From contig NC_087079.1 in NCBI RefSeq assembly GCF_026151205.1, positions 16,672,945 to 16,736,944 of the forward strand: DNA of 64,000 bases. The letters are read 5' to 3'. This stretch comes from Bolinopsis microptera (taxonomy: Eukaryota; Ctenophora; Tentaculata; Lobata; Bolinopsidae). Shown one piece after another: positions 10,801 to 47,340 of this stretch (its first letter is position 1; every line of letters begins with the position of its first letter). Both the position numbers and the translations under genes were made by a program. The notes under the pieces were generated by a model. That model was given only the letters and a program-made list of their open reading frames with translations. It searched no databases and was not told the DNA's origin.

Positions 10801-13800
10801 GACGGCTCCCTCCACCAGAACAAGGGGAGAAGGAGAGAGAAGAAGAGGCGGGAAGACAGTGATAGAGAGAAGGTTAGAGTCTACGTTGGTACTGCCACTA
10901 ACACTGAACTGCACTGTGGACGTACCCAGAGAGATACCCCTTACTCTGACAGTGGATTATTAAGTTTAGGATAGGAATCTGACTGTTGCGTTGCAAGAGG
11001 ATTAAAATATTGTTAAATTGCTTTTGTTTGTGTCGTGCTATGATTGAAATCGTCTTGTAAGTTAGAAAATTAGCTAGTTTAAACTAAAACTCACTGGTAC
11101 AAAGTGCAGAATTCATCACAAGAAGTCTGGTCCTCTGCCGAGTGTATCGAGATATGAGGATCTGGTGAGATCTGGTGCCGGAGATCAAGCTTAGGAAATA
11201 CTGCCGATGATATCTTCCTGATAATACAATCAGCGTAAATAATTATGGAATTGTTCATGATTGGGGGACTGGTCCGTAGTACCAGCCAATGTTTACTCAA
11301 AAGTAATATATAATTGAAATAAGTTAAATATTCATCCCCGAGGGGCACGCAGATTATAAATGTGATGTTATCTATTAAAACTATTCGATTAAAATTTTAT
11401 TGGTCGAGTCGACTGGCCCTGATCTGCAAACATATTTGATATTGGTAACTTTATGATGCTGCCTCACCGCAATTAGGTGTGTTATCAGTGAAGATATGCG
11501 CTATGTGGCAGTGAAATAAGGAATGTGCTGTTAGAATGGCAGGTGGTTAGAAATGTTGTCCTGATTCAGATTGTTTAATTTGAGCTGTATGAGTTTGGTT
11601 TTGAGTGATTATTGACTATGTTCTTTGTGATTTACGTAATCCAGGTAGGTTGTGGAGTAAAAATGGTGGCCATTCGTCGTTGCAGCCAGCACTTTGCAAG
11701 TCTAGTAGTACTTTTTTTGACGAATTCTTATATATGTTGATAGAAAATATACTGGATGGGCATGTAATGCGAGTGTTATGCTCTGAAATAGCGAGCATTG
11801 GGCCTTTATAAAAGATGCTAGATCTCAGGTCAGTCTGTGAGTAAATTGATAACCAGTCTAAGTTTTGTTCGTGTGTCGTTCCTTGTTTGGGTGTGATTAT
11901 AACGGTAACAATCTAATTGTACCAAACACTAAAATATCCTGTCATTTTGTATCATTCATAATATGGATTAATAACATATACAGGGTGTTTCAAAAATAAT
12001 GTCCTGATTTTAAAAAACAATAAAATTTTTGCTCCTTTATAAAAGTTTATTGTTTTTTAAAATCAGGACATTATTTTTGAAACACCCTGTAGTTTAATCC
12101 AAGTAAAGGTAACCTGTTGTTAGAGTCGATGACTGAGAGGCTGAGAAGAGCGGAGCTGTGTATCTCCAACTGAGATACGGTTCTTATCACCACTTCGGCT
12201 GGTCCGGTCACGTGAACGTTACATCTGAGGCGATGTTTCAGGCATGACTTCTTTTTGTTAGTTCAGTTCGTTTTCAATTTTAATCTTAATCTTAATTTTC
12301 AGTACGTTTTACCTAACAATATCATTTTTTAGCTAGCAGAATGGTTTTCAGAGGGCATTAATGAAATGTAATATGAGCTGGTCCCAAGTCCAGACGCCAT
12401 TTTATTCTTTGTAATTTTCAATAACCCTGTCTAGTCATTGACTACTGATTTAGGTTTAGATAGTTATGGCTAAAAAGCAGTGATAAGAAAACGTTAAGTC
12501 GTAGTAAAGTTATTATTAAATCATATTAAAGTCATAATAAAAACGTCTTTAAGTGATAAGATGTAAACCGTGCGGCTTGTTGGGGTAAGCAGAGATCTTG
12601 CACGGTCAATGTGGTCACTCCTTGTAGATGCGGGGTCATCTGAAAATGTGATTCAACTAAATTGATTATGATTAATAGCCCAGCTATCTCCATTAAAATA
12701 GTTTTATCGTAAGTGGTAGACAGTATTTAACGCAATCTGAGGACAGCTTATAAAGCAGGAGAAATGCGGCAACATTTTTCTAAATTCCTCGTAAAACTAT
12801 TATCTGAGAAACTCATCTGAGAAACTCACAAGAATGGGAGAAGAATCACCAGCAGACATGTTGACCACACCCGGACTGTTGACAGTGGAGGAGTAGGTCC
12901 CAGACCCTCCACTTACTGTTACCTCTCTGGAACCTAGGGGAAGATTTACAGGGTGTTACACTCTGATACATGGTGTTACAGGGTGTTACACTCTGATACA
13001 TGGTGTTACAGTCTGATACATGGTATTACATGGTGTTACAGTCTGATACATGGTGTTACACTCTGATACATGGTGTTACAGGGTGTTACACTCTGATACA
13101 TGGTGTTACAGGGTGTTACACTCTGATACATGGTGTTACAGGGTGTTACACTCTGATACATGGTGTTACAGGGTGTTACACTCTGATACATGGTGTTACA
13201 TGGTGTTACACTCTGATACATGGTGATACAGGGTGTTACACTCTGATACAGGGTGAATGGTGATACAGGGTGTTACACTCTGATTCATGGTGTTACACTC
13301 TGATACATGGTGATACAGGGTGTTACACTCTGATACATGGTGTTACACTCTGATACATGGTGTTACAGGGTGTTACACTCTGATACATGGTGTTACAGGG
13401 TGTTACACTCTGATACATGGTGTTACATGGTGTTACACTCTGATACATGGTGATACAGGGTGTTACACTCTGATACAGGGTGAATGGTGATACAGGGTGT
13501 TACACTCTGATTCATGGTGTTACACTCTGATACAGGGTGAATGGTGATACAGGGTGTTACACTCTGATACATGGTGATACAGGGTGTTACACTCTGATAC
13601 AGGGTGAATGGTGATACAGGGTGTTACACTCTGATACAGGGTGTTACACTCTGATACAGGGTGTTACACTCTGATACAGGGTGTTACACTCTGATACATG
13701 GTGTTACACTCTGATACATGGTGTTACACTCTGATACAGTGTGTTACAGGGTGTTACACTCTGATACATGGTGATACATGGTGTTACACTCTGATACATG

Positions 13801-16800
13801 GTGATACAGGGTGTTACACTCTGATACATGGTGATAAATGGTGTTACACTCTGATACATGGTGTTACATGGTTTTACACTCTGATACATGGTGATACATG
13901 GTGTTACACTCTGATACATGGTGTTACATGGTGTTACACTCTGATACATGGTGTTACATGGTGTTACACTCTGATACATGGTGTTACAGTCTGATACATG
14001 GTATTACATGGTGTTACAGTCTGATACATGGTGTTACACTCTGATACATGGTGTTACAGGGTGTTACACTCTGATACATGGTGTTACAGGGTGTTACACT
14101 CTGATACATGGTGTTACAGGGTGTTACACTCTGATACATGGTGTTACAGGGTGTTACACTCTGATACATGGTGTTACATGGTGTTACACTCTGATACATG
14201 GTGATACAGGGTGTTACACTCTGATACAGGGTGAATGGTGATACAGGGTGTTACACTCTGATTCATGGTGTTACACTCTGATACATGGTGATACAGGGTG
14301 TTACACTCTGATACATGGTGTTACACTCTGATACATGGTGTTACAGGGTGTTACACTCTGATACATGGTGTTACATGGTGTTACACTCTGATACATGGTG
14401 ATACAGGGTGTTACACTCTGATACAGGGTGAATGGTGATACAGGGTGTTACACTCTGATTCATGGTGTTACACTCTGATACAGGGTGAATGGTGATACAG
14501 GGTGTTACACTCTGATACATGGTGATACAGGGTGTTACACTCTGATACAGGGTGAATGGTGATACAGGGTGTTACACTCTGATACAGGGTGTTACACTCT
14601 GATACAGGGTGTTACACTCTGATACATGGTGTTACACTCTGATACATGGTGTTACACTCTGATACAGTGTGTTACAGGGTGTTACACTCTGATACATGGT
14701 GATACATGGTGTTACACTCTGATACATGGTGATACAGGGTGTTACACTCTGATACATGGTGATAAATGGTGTTACACTCTGATACATGGTGTTACATGGT
14801 TTTACACTCTGATACATGGTGATACATGGTGTTACACTCTGATACATGGCGTTACATGGTGTTACACTCTGATACATGGTGTTACATGGTGTTACACTCT
14901 GATACATGGTGATACAGGGTGTTACACTCTGATACATGGTGTTACATGGTGTTACACTCTGATACATGGTGTTACACTTTGATACATGGTGTTACAGGGT
15001 GTTAGACTCTGATACATGGTGATACAGGGTGTTACACTCTGATACATGGTGTTACATGGTGTTACACTCTGATACATGGTGTTACACTCTGATACATGGT
15101 GATACAGGGTGTTACACTCTGATACATGGTGTTACATGGTGTAACACTCTGATGCATGGTGATACAGGGTGTTACACTCTGATACATGGTGATACAGGGT
15201 GTTACACTCTGATACATGGTGATACAGGGTGTTACACTCTGATACATGGTGATACATGGTGTTACACTCTGATACATGGTGTTACATGGTGTTACACTCT
15301 GATACATGGTGTTACATGGTGTTACACTCTGATACATGGTGATACAGGGTGTTACACTCTGATACATGGTGTTACACTCTGATACATGGTGATACAGGGT
15401 GTTACACTCTGATACATGGTGTTACACTCTGATACATGGTGATACATGGTGTTACACTCTGATACATGGTGATTCAGGGTGTTACACTCTGATCATGATA
15501 CATGGTGTTACAGGGTGTTACAGGGTGACTGGGTCTTATAGGGTGTGAACATGTGTTACAAGAATGACTGAATGATTGTGGCATGAGGAATTTCGAGTCG
15601 TTCGAACCACTTATCAGTTTTCATCAACAGATTATATTATTATACCAAATATGAAACTGATTATTGATAAGAAAATGTGAAAGAAGAAAGATAATAAAAA
15701 TATACCTTCTTCGTAGTTGAACATGGTGAGGGAAGTTGGTTCTATGCTGAGTTCGTTAACCAACTTAAACCGAACACTTTCCGATAATCCAGATTCTGAA
15801 ATAAAGGGATAAGCAATAGCAAACAAAATGTGTTTATGTTGAGAGTTAATGTTATCTATTTTTATCATCAATCAAGATTAGCGGTTTGAAAATCAGTTTA
15901 CCCAGTTCAGTGGTCATATCCCCGATCAAGTACACCTCATCATACTGATCCACCGTAACAGAAAGCTCCACACTCCCAATACTCTCCAGGAGATGGGACA
16001 CTAAGGTAGATTGGCTTGTTTCTATCCCTGAGGCTGACTCTACGTCTACTGTCAACCTGAGAGTATGTTTCTATCAGGAGATGAGACACTAAGGTAGATT
16101 GACTTGTTTCTATCCCTGAGGCTGACTCTACGTCTACTGTCAACCTGAGAGTATGTTTCTATCAGGAGATGAGACACTAAGGTAGATTGACTTGTTTCTA
16201 TCCCTGAGGCTGACTCTACGTCTACTGTCAACCTGAGAGTATGTTTCTATCAGGAGATGAGACACTAAGGTAGATTGACTTGTTTCTATCCCTGAGGCTG
16301 ACTCTACGTCTACTGTCAACCTGAGAGTATGTTTCTATCAGGAGATGAGACACTAAGGTAGATTGACTTGTTTCTATCCCTGAGGCTGACTCTACGTCTA
16401 CTGTCAACCTGAGAGTATGTTTCTATCAGGAGATGAGACACTAAGGTAGATTGACTTGTTTCTATCCCTGAGGCTGACTCTACGTCTACTGTCAACCTGA
16501 GAGTATGTTTCTATCAGGAGATGAGACACTAAGGTAGATTGACTTGTTTCTATCCCTGAGGCTGACTCTACGTCTACTGTCAACCTGAGAGTATGTTTCT
16601 ATCAGGAGATGTGACACTAAGGTAGATTGGCTTGTTTCTATCCCTGAGGCTGACTCTACGTCTACTGTCAACCTGAGAGTATGTTTCTATCAGGAGATGT
16701 GACACTAAGGTAGATTGGCTTGTTTCTATCCCTGAGGCTGACTCTACGTCTACTGTCAACCTGAGAGTATGTTTCTATCAGGAGATGTGACACTAAGGTA

Positions 16801-19800
16801 GATTGGCTTGTTTCTATCCCTGAGGCTGACTCTACGTCTACTGTCAACCTGAGAGTATGTTTCTATCAGGAGATGAGACACTAAGGTAGATTGACTTGTT
16901 TCTATCCCTGAGGCTGACTCTACGTCTACTGTCAACCTGAGAGTATGTTTCTATCAGGAGATGTGACACTAAGGTAGATTGGCTTGTTTCTATCCCTGAG
17001 GCTGACTCTACGTCTACTGTCAACCTGAGAGTATGTTTCTATCAGGAGATGAGACACTAAGGTAGATTGGCTTGTTTCTATCCCTGAGGCTGACTCTACG
17101 TCTACTGTCAACCTGAGAGTATGTTTCTATCAGGAGATGAGACACTAAGGTAGATTGACTTGTTTCTATCCCTGAGGCTGACTCTACGTCTACTGTCAAC
17201 CTGAGAGTATGTTTCTATCAGGAGATGTGACACTAAGGTAGATTGACTTGTTTCTATCCCTGATGCTGACTCTACGTCTACTGTCAACCTGAGAGTATGT
17301 TTCTATCAGGAGATGTGACACTAAGGTAGATTGACTTGTTTCTATCCCTGCGGCTGACTCTACGTCTACTGTCAACCTGAGAGTATGTTTCTATCAGGAG
17401 ATGGGACACTAAGGTAGATTGGCTTGTTTCTATCCCTGAGGCTGACTCTACCTCTACTGTCAACCTGAGAGTATGTTTCTATCAGGAGATGCGACACTAA
17501 GGTAGATTGGCTTGTTTCTATCCCTGAGACTGACTCTACTTCTACTGTCAACCTGGGAGTATGTTTCTATCAGGAGATGTGACACTAAGGTAGATTGACT
17601 TGTTTCTATCCTGAGGCTGACTCTACGTCTACTGTCAACCTGAGAGTATGTTTCTATCAGGAGATGAGACACTAAGGTAGATTGACTTGTTTCTATCCCT
17701 GAGACTGACTCCACGTCTACTGTCAACCTGAGAGTATGTTTCTATCAGGAGATGAGACACTAAGGTAGATTGACTTGTTTCTATCCCTGAGGCTGACTCT
17801 ACGTCTACTGTCAACCTGAGAGTATGTTTCTATCAGGAGATGTGACACTAAGGTAGATTGACTTGTTTCTATCCCTGAGGCTGTCTCTACGTCTACTGTC
17901 AACCTGAGAGTATGTTTCTATCAGGATATGAGACACTAAGGTAGATTGACTTGTTTCTATCCCTGAGGCTGTCTCTACGTCTACTGTCAACCTGAGAGTA
18001 TGTTTCTATCAGGAGATGAGACACTAAGGTAGATTGACTTGTTTCTATCCCTGAGGCTGACTCTACGTCTACTGTCAACCTGAGAGTATGTTTCTATCAG
18101 GAGATGTGACACTAAGGTAGATTGACTTGTTTCTATCCCTGAAGCTGACTCTACGTCTACTGTCAACCTGAGAGTATGTTTCTATCAGGAGATGAGACAC
18201 TAAGGTAGATTGACTTGTTTCTATCCCTGAGGCTGACTCTACGTCTAATGTCAACCTGAGAGTATGTTTCTATCAGGAGATGAGACACTAAGGTAGATTG
18301 ACTTGTTTCTATCCCTGAGGCTGACTCTACGTCTACTGTCAACCTGAGAGTATGTTTCTATCAGGAGATGGGACACTAAGGTAGATTGACTTGTTTCTAT
18401 CCCTGAGGCTGACTCTACGTCTACTGTCAACCTGAGAGTATGTTTCTATCAGGAGATGTGACACTAAGGTAGATTGACTTGTTTTCTATCCCTGAGGCTG
18501 ACTCTACGTCTACTGACAACCTGAGAGTATGTTTCTATCAGGAGATGAGACACTAAGGTAGATTGACTTGTTTCTATCCCTGAGGCTGACTCTACGTCTA
18601 CTGTCAACCTGAGAGTAGTGTTTCTATCAGGAGATGAGACACTAAGGTAGATTGACTTGTTTCTATCCCTGAGGCTGACTCTACGTCTACTGTCAACCTG
18701 AGAGTATGTTTCTATCAGGAGATGTGACACTAAGGTAGATTGACTTGTTTCTATCCCTGAGGCTGACTCTACGTCTACTGTCAACCTGGGAGTATGTTTC
18801 TATCAGGAGATGAGACACTAAGGTAGATTGACTTGTTTCTATCCATGAGGCTGACTCTACGTCCTACTGTCAACCTGAGAGTATGTTTCTATCAGGAGAT
18901 GAGACACTAAGGTAGATTGGACTTGTTTCTATCCCTGAGGCTGACTCTACGTCTACTGTCAACCTGAGAGTATGTTTCTATCAGGAGATGAGACACGAAG
19001 GTAGATTGACTTGTTTCTATCCTGAGGCTGACTCTACGTCTACTGTCAACCTGAGAGTATGTTTCTATCAGGAGATGTGACACTAAGGTAGATTGACTTG
19101 TTTCTATCCCTGAGGCTGACTCTACGTCTACTGTCAACCTGAGAGTATGTTTCTATCAGGAGATGTGACACTAAGGTAGATTGGCTTGTTTCTATCCCTG
19201 AGGCTGACTCTACGTCTACTGTCAACCTGAGAGTATGTTTCTATCAGGAGATGTGACACTAAGGTAGATTGACTTGTTTCTATCCCTGAGGCTGACTCTA
19301 CGTCTACTGTCAACCTGGGAGTATGTTTCTATCAGGAGATGTGACACTAAGGTAGATTGGCTTGTTTCTATCCCTGAGGCTGACTCTACGTCTACTGTCA
19401 ACCTGAGAGTATGTTTCTTCATGGAGTTGTGTTTCTTTTGATATCAGGAGATAAGGAACTTCGAAGACAGAGAGACTGGATGAATAAATACTCAAGATTC
19501 TATCATTCGTTTCTACATTTAATAGTGCATCATTCTGAAAAATGTTTTAAACTCTTGTTGCTCCTATACATAATTATAATATTTACGCTTACTTACAATT
19601 CAACATCAGAGGAGGTGAAATGGAAAAGAAGAGAGGAAGAGTTATCAAAGAGCAAATCATCTGGTGTCTTTACAAGAAAATGCACCTTCACATCTTGTTT
19701 TGTCATCGTAGCTAACTGAAAAATACAAGATAATTTATAACAGACAACAAAGGGCAGAGTTGGGTTTCATTTCATCCAATTATCCAAGAAGAAAGACGAA

Positions 19801-22800
19801 AAAAGGATCAATATTCGACCCGGTAATGAAAGAAAATGTCGTAATTTCTAATAAAATGATGGAGACATTAAAATATTTCAAGAGATCTCTCAAGCAAGAA
19901 AGTTAGTTATTCACCTGGTCACAGGGACAAAAGGATTTCGCTATTATTTTGGCCAAAAATCGCGATACCGCGAATTATAACAGACTATACATTAAATTTG
20001 TTGCAAATAATGGGAAAAATCGCGATTCCGTACATGCCGCGATTTCCTTTTGTCCTTGCCTGGTCAGAGAAAGGGCAGGTTGAAGGTGGCGAGGGTAGAC
20101 TGTGAGAAAGTGAAAGTATTCCCGGTACTTCACATCTCACTTTCACAGTCAGGGACTCTGTGGCTGGGTATCTGTTATCTGCTGTTATCTTGTTCCCCAC
20201 TATCACCATTCCTAGCTGAGAGTACAAGTGGTGGTAGGGGGGGGGGTGGTAGGGGAGAAATACTTTGACGGTTTTGGAATGTTAAGTTTTGCAACGTACA
20301 AATAAAGAACACATCAAAAAGAAGTCTTGTTGTAAAATAAGATCAACGAACCTGCTCGCCCAGAATAAGACACGTGACTCTAAAATAATGGCTGACACCA
20401 TGTGCTCCCTTGGTTGAGACGAGGTCCGCACTGTAACCCCCTCCTACACTCTGCATCTCCTCCGTGTACCCAGATTTGTCTGTAACCCATGGTCCAGGTC
20501 CTCCAGACAGGGTCAGTAGATGGGATGATCCTGGGGTGAGGAGTTTTAGACCCATAAAGTAGCGAGAGCTTCATGATCATCAATATAATGATGATAAAGG
20601 TAGCATTGCTATATGTATCAGGGACAAAAGGAAATCGCGGCATGTACGAAATCGCAATTTTTCCCATTATTTGCGACAAATGTTATGTAAAGTTTAATGT
20701 ATAGCCTGTTAAAAATCGCGGTATCGCAATTTTTGGCCAAAATAATTGCGAAATCCTTTTGTCCCTGATATGTATTGTAGCATGCATTGCTACATGTATT
20801 GAAGCATGTATTGCTACAATTCAAAATTTCATCGTTCATACTTTGTGCTAAAAAACTTGGTGTGTTCACAAGATCAAGAATAGAACAAACCTAAAGTCAA
20901 TATAAGGGTATGTGAAGGGTAGGTCAGCTTAAGTGGCAAGTACGCTGCGATGACGATGGTAGCACTGAGCACTGTTTCTCTAGATGTAGCGTACGTGACC
21001 TTTAGGATAGAGGAACCAGGTCGAGCTCCCGTTACAGTAATGATACTGCACACTCCTGGTAACAGAGGAATTTAATTCTCCCTTTGAATCAATCAAGCTA
21101 GATGATTTGTTGTAAATACTGAGATCAGACTATCAATTTACAGGCTATCGTTAAACATGTTGCAAGGCGTCATCTTCAGTGACATAAGCCTAAAAATTGT
21201 AAAAAGTTAGCAAAACCCAAACACTCCTGGCAAGGTTATATCACGTGATACGACGTCAAACACAGTTCATTGTATTGAGTTTCAGAGAACGATTAGTTTA
21301 ATCTAATTGATTTGAATTCAGAGTAAAATAATCAATAATCGGATAATTTTATTGTTGAAAGATTAATTAATGGGATAATTATATTTATCAAAGATCGAAT
21401 GTTTGTTATTATAACCTTGTGCGAGATCACCGCCAGGTTTCTCTTCCTTCTCCATCACAAACAAGTCGTTTGACAGGCTGTAAACCAGAGGAACTAAATC
21501 ACAACGAGTGAATGGTAGCTGAGATAAAACGTGGGTTAGATCAGTGAGGAACCAATTGTGGCAAAAGAATCACTTGTGGCAGAGTTGCAGAAATGAAAAA
21601 TGAAGCTAATCTAGGGGGGGGGGGGGGCAACGCCCCAAAAGGCCCCAAAAAGCCCCGATTTCTAGGGCCCTTTTCGGATTTTTGATATGTGTGGGGCCTT
21701 TTGGGGCGTTGCCCCCCCCCCCCCCCTAATCTATTATTTATCATAATTTATCATAAACATACCTTAGTGCCTGGTTCCAGTTCTATAAACGCAGCCAGGT
21801 TGAGTCTCAGAGTGGATCCTACAAGAGTTTCTACTTTGGACGGTAGGAACGTCAGGCCTGACAGTTCTGCTACTATAACCTGAATCAAATGTTTCATCTT
21901 TAGAGTGAATTTTGATGTACTTGTACGGTTTATTTTAAACGTTAATACAAGGTCAGAAACTTCGTAAAACTTTTATAATCAAAATGAATTACTTAAACTT
22001 TCTCCCCGAACGCAAATACCTCAGCGGAACCGGAGTTATCAGTATTCTTAGCATCACTAGCAGTCACCATCTCCCTGCCCTCACCACGGCCCGTGACCAC
22101 GCCCTCTTTTGTAACGGTAACAAGCGACGTGTCGCGCGACGACCACATGTACTCTCCACTTCCACCCTCCGCTGACAGCCTGAGCAGTTGTTGGCGCGTG
22201 TAATTATAAAACTTGATGATTGTTTCTTGTTGAGATTGTGCAGCTGAGAATATCAGAGGAACAAGTAACTTTTATGATTTAGTTTAAATGAAAGCGAATA
22301 AAATAGGCAGCATTTTACCCGTAAGTGAAGGGTTGCAGTTTGTAGAGTGGTAGTATGACAACAGCCGGGGTTACTGTGATGGGGGACCGTATTTCAACCG
22401 TCTGGGAACTTGACACTGGGGGCTCTACAGGGTGCTCTTCTCCTGAGAGTTTGTTTTTCAGAAATTGCCATCAGGGACAAAAGGAAATCGCGGCATGTAC
22501 GAAATCGCGATTTTTCCCATTATTTGCGACAAATTTTATGTATAGTCTTATGTATAGTCTGTTAAAAATCGCGGTATCGCGATTTTTGGCCAAAATAATC
22601 GCGAAATCCTTTTGTCCCTGGTTGCCATGGTTATACTGACGATATTATGAAGAGAGACCAAGAAGAAAATAAAACGTTAATAATGCAGCGAAAGAATACG
22701 ACTAACCTGAAAAAGGTAAGACTAACCAGTTTTGGGATGAATAAGAATGTCTAAAGTAGCCAGTATCTTGGCAGAGCCAGTATCTTTAGCCAGTACTGTG

Positions 22801-44434: not shown

Positions 44435-44803
44435 CTATTCATTGCTGTGTAGGGCACTCTGAATTGAGATAAGGTTGTCCAAGTTCATTGGAGGAGGCTT
44501 TGAATCCCATCCCCAAGATGTAATCTGGTCAAATGAATGAGTTACATGAAATTCCTCTTCCTCTGTGTCAGTAGTTGTTTTTGATTTGTTGAGAACTATT
44601 CCCCTGTATCCTTCAGGAAGAGATGATACGGTGCTTTGCAGTTGTCTCCCTCTGAAACTGGAGGTGCCGTCTGGGGCAACTATAAACAAATCAGAGATTC
44701 TTGCCTCTCCAGTGTGTTCTATTGTGCAGGGTAATTTATGAACTTTGGAAGGTTCTGATATTGTCAACTTTGATTCATCATACTTAACCGGAACAGAATC
44801 CAT
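44435..44803 (-). CDS. RNASEH2C: Ribonuclease H2 subunit C
   Basis: Single coding exon of 122 residues starting MDSVPVKYDESK. RNase H2C is a non-catalytic subunit of the trimeric enzyme that removes ribonucleotides from DNA and degrades RNA:DNA hybrids. Landmarks in family order are HKLPCTIEHTG near residue 20, SFRGRQLQSTVSSLPEGYRG in the middle, then FDQITSWGWDSKP and a C-terminal LDNLISIQSALH. The human protein has 164 residues and yeast about 110, so the length is normal. An upstream in-frame extension exists but does not resemble the family. A TTTCTCAG just before the start could be an acceptor for an intron in the 5' leader. The gene converges with the four-TM gene, leaving about 850 bp between stops. 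Confidence 0.88.
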   Translation of the reverse strand: MDSVPVKYDESKLTISEPSKVHKLPCTIEHTGEARISDLFIVAPDGTSSFRGRQLQSTVSSLPEGYRGIVLNKSKTTTDTEEEEFHVTHSFDQITSWGWDSKPPPMNLDNLISIQSALHSNE

Positions 44804-45009
44804 TATAAACCTGAGAAATACAGTGTGAGAAGTACGACAAGAATAATATTGAAACAACCAATACAGGGGTATTATATTTAAGAAGGGATCGCCCATATTA
44901 TATCGGCCAGTGGTGATACGTACCTGTGTGCTGCAACCCCCGCAAATTTTTTTCTCTGCCCCAAAATTGTATTTTGCTTCCCCCAGCCCTGGAAGCAAAA
45001 GCAAAAAAG

Positions 45010-47340
45010 AGGGGGCGGTCGTTTCGCCACTGCAGTCTACTGCACAAGCGAATTAGTTTTGAAAAGATTTGTTATTTCCACACAATCTGGTGTGTAGAAT
45101 GTTAACAGAGGGAAGGGCCAGAAATTGCAAAAAATCTTGCTAAAGTAGTATGTAAAAGATCCATAGTGAGTAGTGGCTAACACTTGCAACTAGACCTGAA
45201 GAAATAGAGCTAAAAAACCACCATGTGGTCAAATGGATGGCAGATGCCGTTTATGTTAAGAGACCGGCCCTAAAAAATGGGACACTGCTATATCAATCTT
45301 CTCTGTCAAATTGGTTTGGACTTTGGCTGATCATTGGATCTGGTACACAAACAATTTCACAGAATTTACTACCCTGAATGATGCACCAAGATAGCAAGTC
45401 CTCAGTCATCTGATGTGGTTAATGCCATTCGAGGGGCTGAGACCATTTAAAAATAGTCTGAGTTTAAAATGGGGTGATTCAGTCAAAGACTTGATCGAGT
45501 GACAAAAACACGTTTCCAATGAAACAAGAAATTTTTCAGTGAAACAAGAAATTTAATTTTAGCACATTTTTACAGAATAAAAAGATGTAAAACAATTCAT
45601 AAAATATAATGCTCATTTGGTGTATGACTTTTTGTCCTTGACTGCTAGTTTGGTTTTGAAAGGACAGGTAACTAACGGGGCAAGGAATGCGCGTGCCTGG
45701 AAGCTTTTGCACACACCGAAACGCTAGTTCAGTTAAGTTTTTAGAGACGAGGCTCTAATTAGGACTAGAAGAAAAATTGTTAGCAGACATTAGGGGTTCT
45801 GTTTATAGTTGTTACTATAGGTTGCAGTCTTGTTGTGACAGAAAGTCTACACTATATAATATGCTTAAGTTTAAATTTTGTAGTTTGAGGATATAAAATG
45901 CAACTTTAAGATTGATTTTGGAGGGCTGGTGAAAAATTATGGTCTTTGTATCAATGGTTATAATAAGCTATAAATATCTTAAACTATACAGTGCTGATTA
46001 AAAATTTCTTTATACTTCATTCTCAAATTAAATTTTAAAAATTTAAAAATATACATTCATTTTATTAAATCTTTCTCACACATACTTTACTCACAGGACA
46101 AGACTTGGAAAACAGTAGACTAGGGTAATTTAATTTAGATATGTGTGACCAGCCAGTTATAATGTTTGGAAAATAACATTTGCGCATTCAAAATCTTTTA
46201 TGGTCCAATCAAGCAGGGCATGCTTATGTTGATTAGCTAATAGCACGTTTTAGCTTACCTCGCAAGCACATTACACTAGTAGTAAAGTCAGTCATTCTGA
46301 ACTTTGGGGTTAAAATGTTAAAAATTTTGGTTGATCTAGTGTTGTGATTGTCAGGTGGGTCTGCCTGACAGATTAGAAGGCAGGGTTTCCTTGACGAACA
46401 TGTGTAACCCTCATGTAGGGATATTGGAGCACAGAATTTCATTATCTTGTAGAGCTCGAGGTAACTGTGGTATGTATAGAGATTTTTTATGGCTAGAATA
46501 TCATTATGCTTGAATATTGGTTTGGTGTGCTCTTTTATGAAAAAATGTTGGTCAAGTTTCTGGTGTCCTATAGGCCTAGTACGTGCACAAGTCTTAAACT
46601 TATCAAGGTACGCCAGCCTATCGCCAAATAGTACTCTGAGACAGTACTTCTGAGCAGTAAATAATGAGCTTATACGTTGCTTCGCTGCCCCACCCCATAC
46701 AGATATACAGTAGCAAAGATGTGATTCGAACAGTTTCCATTACGTTTTACCAATACCCTCTACACTCTAACACGCAATTTGTTTACATTTTGTTCGACAA
46801 TTATGCGAGGTAGCCAAAGTGCAAAGTGCAAAGGTTGCGTGTACATTAGACTACTGTACGTAACTAGCTAAAGAGGGATGCAAATTGGCACACATATTGT
46901 GAGACAATTACTCTGATCTAACGCTCGATTCACAAATTTTAAATTCATTCGATGTTATTTGCTATAGAATGTATAGTAGAAAGGTATAACGAATTAATCA
47001 TTCTACACTTAACTTTTTATAAACAGGTTCTCTAGGTGGCCCTGAAAGACCATTTAAAACCCTAACACTCGAATCATAACAACGACATTTGGATGTTATG
47101 TCAGCTGATGTTGGAGGACACCGCTGCTTCTAATTTTAAATCTATCACATATCATTTGACAGCAACCATAAAATGTCAATACAAATTTTGTTGCTACACG
47201 TACGTTGTATTAGGGGTTGACCATTGTTAATGATCTGGCCCGGCGCGCGCTACTTCGTAGCACTTGCCACTAACATTTCGAGAAGAAAGCTGAAAGCGGC
47301 GCGCGCTACTTCGAAATTTAGACGGGTAACATCCGTCAAT
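45010..47340. other. No gene recognised
   Basis: AT-rich intergenic sequence upstream of RNASEH2C. The short frames are without splice or family support. A direct duplication GAAACAAGAAATTT occurs near 45520-45555. Confidence 0.5.

Follow-up and report, generated by a model that had tools for sequence, protein, structure and literature searches.

A hAT-type MITE on a splice donor of NUP210 in the ctenophore Bolinopsis microptera, most likely tolerated through a composite GC donor

Analysis of genomic DNA of the ctenophore Bolinopsis microptera revealed a 137-bp hAT-type MITE inserted exactly on a splice donor of a gene identified by homology as NUP210/gp210, which codes for a nuclear-pore protein; the insertion is most likely tolerated through a GC donor composed of target and transposon bases. 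The site lies in a window of 64,000 nucleotides (contig NC_087079.1, positions 16,672,945 to 16,736,944 of the forward strand), whose own numbering is used here; the features are collected in Table 1, where exons 19, 20 and 21 keep the numbers of an earlier sequence-only reading of the same DNA, which are not a whole-gene count. On the minus strand, the element is located between two copies of TGACCAGG, identical at 8/8 bases, and such an exact 8-bp target site duplication (TSD) is the mark of an insertion, not a product of chance. Seven of its bases belong to the end of the exon, and the eighth is intron base +1. Since the duplication ends on the first intron base, the near border, CAG/GCAAGGAC (the slash indicates the exon-intron boundary), reads CAG/GCAAGG, with the terminal base of the transposon as the C at +2. 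The far border is CAG/GTGAATAA; removal of the element and of one duplication from the site would leave this same ordinary donor, which is now displaced 145 nt downstream of the near border.

Coordinates and letters given by the sequence-only reading for the element, its TSD over the end of exon 20 and the near junction with its transposon-terminal C are all correct, and the proposal that a GT donor had been replaced by a composite GC donor is borne out by the sequence, in which the G derives from the TSD and the bases from C onward from the transposon. It had also stated that use of the old GT beyond the element brings in a stop codon; indeed, this would add 145 nt to the message, including an in-frame stop. 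Likewise, the element end differs, as described, by one base from both sister copies, which start with CAGGGACAAAAGG, the difference being the A at donor +4. For any one insertion, a TSD ending at +1 is a rare outcome; assuming a total of 100,000-150,000 introns, and counting 481 full copies from the 962 family ends (two per copy), about 0.18-0.27 such cases are expected genome-wide, and a single case needs no special targeting. A search of the 542-bp region 20059-20600 against its own genome gave the self-match only, with no empty allele or paralogue.

Table 1. Features of the insertion site and of the surrounding NUP210 exons (window coordinates)
Feature	Position	Strand	Basis or remark
Exon 19, end; donor CAG/GTTCGT at 20352	20352..20570	-	Upper limit given by the open frame only
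Exon 20, 156 nt, phase 0/0, end of NUP210 Ig-like domain 7	20060..20215	-	Acceptor CTCTCAG, frame, homology
Near TSD copy, TGACCAGG	20059..20066	-	Seven exon bases plus intron base +1
Composite donor, GC of CAG/GCAAGG	20058..20059	-	G (20059) from target, C (20058) terminal base of transposon; U1 -6.8 kcal/mol
hAT-type MITE, 137 bp, ends CAAGGACAAAAGG / CCTTTTGTCCCTG	19922..20058	-	Inverted repeats predicted to fold as a hairpin in the transcript
G>A relative to other copies, element position 3, donor +4	20056	-	G in 24/24 fetched relatives
First in-frame stop in a message retaining the element	19985..19987	-	
Far TSD copy, TGACCAGG	19914..19921	-	With the next base, T, holds AG/GT: old donor, possible acceptor directly before it
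Remainder of the original intron, ending TTTTTCAG	19716..19913	-	199 nt counting the G at 19914
Exon 21, donor ATT/GTAAGT	19597..19715	-	Frame, plus part of the human NUP210 alignment

The identity of the host gene rests on protein homology. The peptide encoded by exons 19, 20 and 21 gave one alignment to residues 710-809 of human NUP210 spanning both junctions (PDB 7r5j, E 2.3e-5) and matched PF22962 with E 1.8e-19, the match running through exons 19 and 20; this homology across the junctions supports the exon boundaries. Two upstream exons match human NUP210 at 604-657 (E 1.8e-4) and 476-526 (E 6.4e-4), in the correct order; in the search that gave 476-526, three bacterial intimin chains (E about 2.5e-5) outranked two NUP210 chains, as may be expected from the Ig-like fold. 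PDB searches with a downstream exon piece and with exon 21 alone gave no match. DNA search and a search with a conserved exon found a single NUP210 locus in the genome, so that a broken copy would not be obviously covered by another one.

Two further copies of the MITE are located within 2.7 kb in the same gene, on the opposite strand, at 20619-20767 and 22472-22620, one with a TSD of ATATGTAT (8/8) and the other with 7/8 bases. Just downstream of exon 21, apparently within an intron of NUP210, a long array of tandem repeats, with a period of 88 bp, is found at 15852-19443, where minus-strand open frames contain ...KHTLRLTVDVESASGIETSQST... every 88 bp. A second tandem array, at 12997-15421, is formed by short repeats with open frames in either strand (...CYTLIHGVTG... 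/ ...MYQSVTPCNT...). Farther away, a 205-aa open frame is present on the minus strand at 44435-45052, which by eye resembles RNASEH2C.

The inserted element is short, non-coding and present in many copies, and on these features it is classed as a MITE. Its ends form inverted repeats with one mismatch between them and are of the CAGGG type; CAGGG is a hAT type of end, and 8-bp TSDs are typical of hAT transposons. Exact CAGGGACAAAAGG ends are found 962 times in the 264.65-Mb genome, compared with 5 for a reversed-pattern control, and the family search reduced 1018 candidates to 40 scored matches. Among the 39 hits other than the NUP210 copy, 24 were fetched for comparison and 15 left out; exact 8-bp TSDs flank 22 of the 24, the exceptions being L002, whose ends were not located, and L080, with three mismatches. 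The NUP210 copy has a 12-bp-shorter form in common with L002 and L003, and carries five substitutions absent from these two, at positions 3, 57, 66, 82 and 117; the change at 57 is also found in L076 and that at 82 in L080, while those at 3, 66 and 117 occur in none of the 24 relatives. Because of these five differences from the shared state of its two closest relatives, the insertion is probably not brand new, fixation being not deducible from a single assembly.

The genome is rich in hAT dimerisation domains, 150 having been scored among 366 candidates, none of them linked to the MITE ends. Two longer elements, L085 and L086, whose CAGGGACAAAAGG ends face inward and lie 2.3 and 3.8 kb apart, contain internal repeats; they are possibly remnants of the parent transposon. 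One type of ORF in them, starting MDRFVKRPADKP, shows closely spaced cysteines and histidines; no recognisable transposase was found among their ORFs, the single one put to Pfam falling below the cut-off. Sites of the form AGG+CA(A/G)GGACAAAAGG, in which AGG precedes the element end, number 24 in the genome, with CAAGGACAAAAGG in 3 of them. Besides that of NUP210, and with C9:8516270 left out, 22 such sites were read: an exact far duplication is present in 14, followed by T in 6 of these 14. A role as donor was shown at none of the 22, the coding context having been checked for few. Three of the AGG-flanked ends, C9:8512360, 8514315 and 8516270, lie exactly 1955 bp apart and represent a tandem repeat, each unit of which carries a MITE copy. 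Elsewhere on C9 (13825100-13825850), a 61-bp partial copy, L058, directly follows a long open frame that shows a sub-threshold similarity (PF00001, 16.0 bits, cut-off 30.5) to a rhodopsin-like receptor, in its final helix and tail; here a transposon end may lie inside a coding exon.

As for the expression of NUP210, we judge that the GC donor is probably used, 20060 being joined to 19715 with mRNA and protein unchanged. The MITE inserted with its TSD across the exon-intron boundary, over seven bases of the exon and one of the intron; the spliceosome would then use the GC donor, removing a 344-nt intron with the whole element inside. Such use would be made possible by the perfect CAG on the exon side together with the A at +3 and the G at +5 supplied by the transposon, and the change from G to A at +4 would add a slight gain in U1 pairing and, according to computation, an easier opening of the hairpin formed by the inverted repeats. 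CAG/GCAAGG has GC at +1/+2 and is otherwise a good donor match, the pattern of GC-AG donors. As described in PMC2490688, GC donors are a natural class in which the other positions lie nearer to the consensus, and they function provided that the remainder of the site is close to it. Splicing at this GC keeps the reading frame, and the resulting peptide matches the Pfam NUP210 Ig-like domain 7 with 70.3 bits (profile 10-99 of 99), compared with 46.2 bits (profile 10-76) for the peptide lacking exon 20; this difference, together with the stop met via the far GT, makes use of the GC donor the best reading.

Among the GT and GC sites scanned between the beginning of exon 20 and the vicinity of exon 21, the displaced GT has the best in-register U1 energy (-8.4 kcal/mol), followed by the GC donor (-6.8) and the next site (-5.2); the exon 19 donor has -6.6 kcal/mol and that of exon 21 has -7.0, with the register not fixed. 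Against use of the GC donor it can be said that the displaced GT pairs better with U1 (-8.4 vs -6.8), and also that the donor is predicted to be largely buried in a hairpin and that exon 20 can be skipped in frame. According to PMC5931963, a +2T>C change at a weak site of TREM2 led to complete exon skipping, although its authors expect less harm at a stronger site. PMC7242645 reports that human and mouse GC-AG introns have weaker sites and more alternative splicing. On balance, the interpretation advanced by the sequence-only reading is supported by the sequence for the composite GC donor and for the stop via the old GT, while its view that the extra substitution was retained for U1 pairing is not borne out in that form.

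The substitution at +4 deserves separate treatment, since it had been proposed to be kept because it strengthened pairing with U1. It appears to be derived in the NUP210 copy, as A is found at position 3 in 0/24 fetched relatives. However, the end CAAGGACAAAAGG is not unique, occurring at 71 genome sites vs 8 for the control, and CAAGGACAAAAGGAAATC occurs at 43, of which 38 of the 42 others were fetched and aligned to the 137-bp element. Alignments covering 116 or more of the 137 bases were obtained only for L012, L024 and L036; the longest single stretch among the others is 65 bases, and L006 has no match, so that at 35 of the 38 sites the elements are alike only near the end or without match. 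At one of these sites, L037, which also carries the A, similarity reaches 98.5% over 65 bases. Descent of the CAAGG end from a CAAGG subfamily was considered and rejected as unlikely, because most of the fetched sites are related but different elements and the fetched close relatives have G in 24/24; an unfetched or lost source copy could still have passed it on. Pairs of CAAGGACAAAAGGAAATC ends facing outward, about 2.7 kb apart, are also seen at C3:2654241/2656974 and C134:1441/4149, an odd arrangement for one element.

In the register of the donor, the U1 energy passes from -6.5 kcal/mol with the family G to -6.8 with A, a gain of 0.3, which is small because the family G can form a wobble pair; the match to the donor consensus is 7/9 bases with A and 6/9 with G. 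The chance that five substitutions include this exact change is about 0.028 (2.8%), and that they include any of three helpful ones is 0.071, both values being post hoc. With so small a gain and such a chance, retention for stronger U1 pairing is a weak explanation. Base pairing of the +4 position with U6 may also play a role. Since the probabilities are all post hoc, selection for the change is only suggested, and we lean towards regarding the +4 change as a neutral passenger.

A larger computed effect concerns RNA structure. For the inverted repeats, a hairpin of -45.7 kcal/mol in 171 nt is predicted (z -2.74; none of 200 shuffled sequences reached this stability), and the donor falls within the stem of this hairpin. 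In this predicted fold the family G at +4 pairs with 19924 with a probability above 0.99 in both 171 and 401 nt, while A is mostly unpaired (0.92 in 171 nt, 0.80 in 401 nt). Accordingly computed, the cost of opening the donor from -3 to +6 falls with the change from G to A from 15.97 to 9.74 kcal/mol in 171 nt and from 17.65 to 11.62 in 301 nt, while the mean unpairedness of the donor rises from 0.28 to 0.33 and from 0.02 to 0.24, respectively. The computations thus assign to the +4 change an effect of about 6 kcal/mol on opening cost, larger than that on U1 pairing. Among the 411 single changes in the element, G>A ranks 8th (171 nt) and 9th (301 nt) for donor opening; positions +5 and +6 of the donor account for 6 of the 7 and 5 of the 8 changes with a better rank, and any of these at +5 would damage the donor itself. 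A comparable opening is reached by 8 or 9 of 411 changes, that is, by simple arithmetic, about one in ten for five substitutions. Even with A, the donor is predicted to be largely buried in the hairpin; U1 may bind before the hairpin forms.

In-frame skipping of exon 20 and a two-step route via the far AG/GT are alternatives that the sequence-only reading did not consider. In the two-step route, which we regard as quite unlikely, a 145-nt GC...AG unit consisting of the element and one duplication would leave first, with the AG of the far duplication as acceptor; CAG/GTGAAT would thereby be rebuilt and the 199-nt original intron would leave from its own GT, giving the same mRNA. Because the TSD ends in AGG and the old intron continues with T, the far side contains AG/GT after CCTTTTGTCCCTGTGACC, and the CAG/GTGAAT able to rebuild the outer donor is indeed present at 19915/19914. 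Upstream of it, in CCTTTTGTCCCTGTGACC, 12 of 16 bases are pyrimidines, a count reached by 5.8% of 2079 YAG sites on the minus strand, while the exon 20 and exon 21 acceptors each have 11/16; pyrimidine content is, however, a crude measure, and the comparison acceptors are only two. The rebuilt GT would be the best U1 match in the region, the inverted repeats are predicted to bring both ends together, and precedents exist in donor-disrupted stwintrons (PMC8469720) and recursive splicing (PMC8605326). On the other hand, one-step splicing suffices, and PMC8605326 reports that intronic recursive splicing in Drosophila needs a cryptic exon at the ratchet point.

If the GC donor were poor, much or most of the message would skip exon 20 in frame or keep the element, and the insertion would be a weak or loss-of-function allele, perhaps polymorphic. 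With its 156 nt and phase 0/0, exon 20 could be lost without a frameshift, at the price of 52 residues, among them those that close Ig-like domain 7; moreover, the partial burial of the GC donor in the predicted hairpin and the complete skipping seen with TREM2 +2T>C at a weak site (PMC5931963) are in line with such mis-splicing. We nevertheless hold it to be unlikely: without exon 20 the Pfam score is 46.2 instead of 70.3 bits, a single NUP210 locus was found, and five differences from the shared state of the closest relatives indicate that the insertion is probably not brand new. An error in the exon model, with exon 20 ending elsewhere or the region not being a functional exon, would mean that no donor was struck. 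The lack of a PDB relative for exon 21 alone could be read in this sense, but the single human NUP210 alignment crosses both junctions, the PF22962 match runs through exons 19 and 20, phase is 0 at both junctions and the displaced GT, located precisely at the exon end, makes a good donor, leaving such an error very improbable. Use of the GC donor can also be extended to a bolder conjecture, namely that a hAT MITE whose TSD ends at +1 would carry its own repair kit: its CAGGG end would provide the GC donor and its pyrimidine-rich far end the AG/GT ratchet, its inverted repeats would join them, and removal in one or two steps would leave the mRNA unchanged, the +4 change having been retained for unlocking the hairpin and not for U1. 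In this full form we find it unlikely.

Several known systems share features with the NUP210 insertion. Introners, MITE-like DNA transposons that become introns, are likewise short elements with terminal inverted repeats and TSDs, as described by Gozashti et al. (2022, PMC9860276); they likewise recruit splice sites from duplication and element in several ways, use GC 5' splice sites in 0 to 50% of cases depending on the family, and leave the mRNA unchanged when spliced, as proposed here. However, introners create a new intron in an exon, whereas the NUP210 MITE replaced an existing donor; since a donor was struck and replaced, the NUP210 intron was lengthened, no new intron being apparent. 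The string "ctenophor" has 0 occurrences in the text available from that paper. The conversion of GT to GC donors, with the rest of the site near consensus, is similarly treated by Churbanov et al. (2008, PMC2490688), where the cause is a point change at +2, whereas in NUP210 all bases from +2 were swapped by the transposon end.

Stwintrons (PMC8469720) and recursive splicing (PMC8605326) likewise involve a unit between an exon and an old donor whose removal rebuilds the outer donor. The inner unit of NUP210 is a transposon copy with TSDs, whereas a DNA-transposition mechanism is excluded for the stwintrons of PMC8469720; it also begins with GC and lies exactly between exon and donor, while the stwintron unit there lies between donor bases 1 and 2. 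In AUX/IAA16 of Bassia scoparia, PMC12277486 describes a transposable element beside a splice junction in a gene spliced to a near-normal protein; that insertion is of LTR type, lies at the exon start, involves GT and AG sites and causes a six-residue change, whereas the GC donor of NUP210 would leave the protein unchanged. Among the literature matches listed, which leave most subscription journals outside, no report of a GT donor converted to a composite GC donor by insertion of a hAT element or MITE was recognised. Transposons, together with the duplications they make, are known to supply splice sites, and the NUP210 case is a variant of this.

The insertion represents a clean example of a transposon that strikes an invariant splice donor and is perhaps still tolerated, a possible tolerance owed to the fixed letters at the transposon end and to the duplication that it made. 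A general rule may follow, by which a hAT TSD ending on the +1 G yields a GC donor, and such an insertion should survive more often than one placed one base to the left. A single site would thus link intron lengthening, the origin of a GC donor and introner-like intron gain, and RNA structure and two-step removal offer sharper, testable ideas than a story of selection based on U1.
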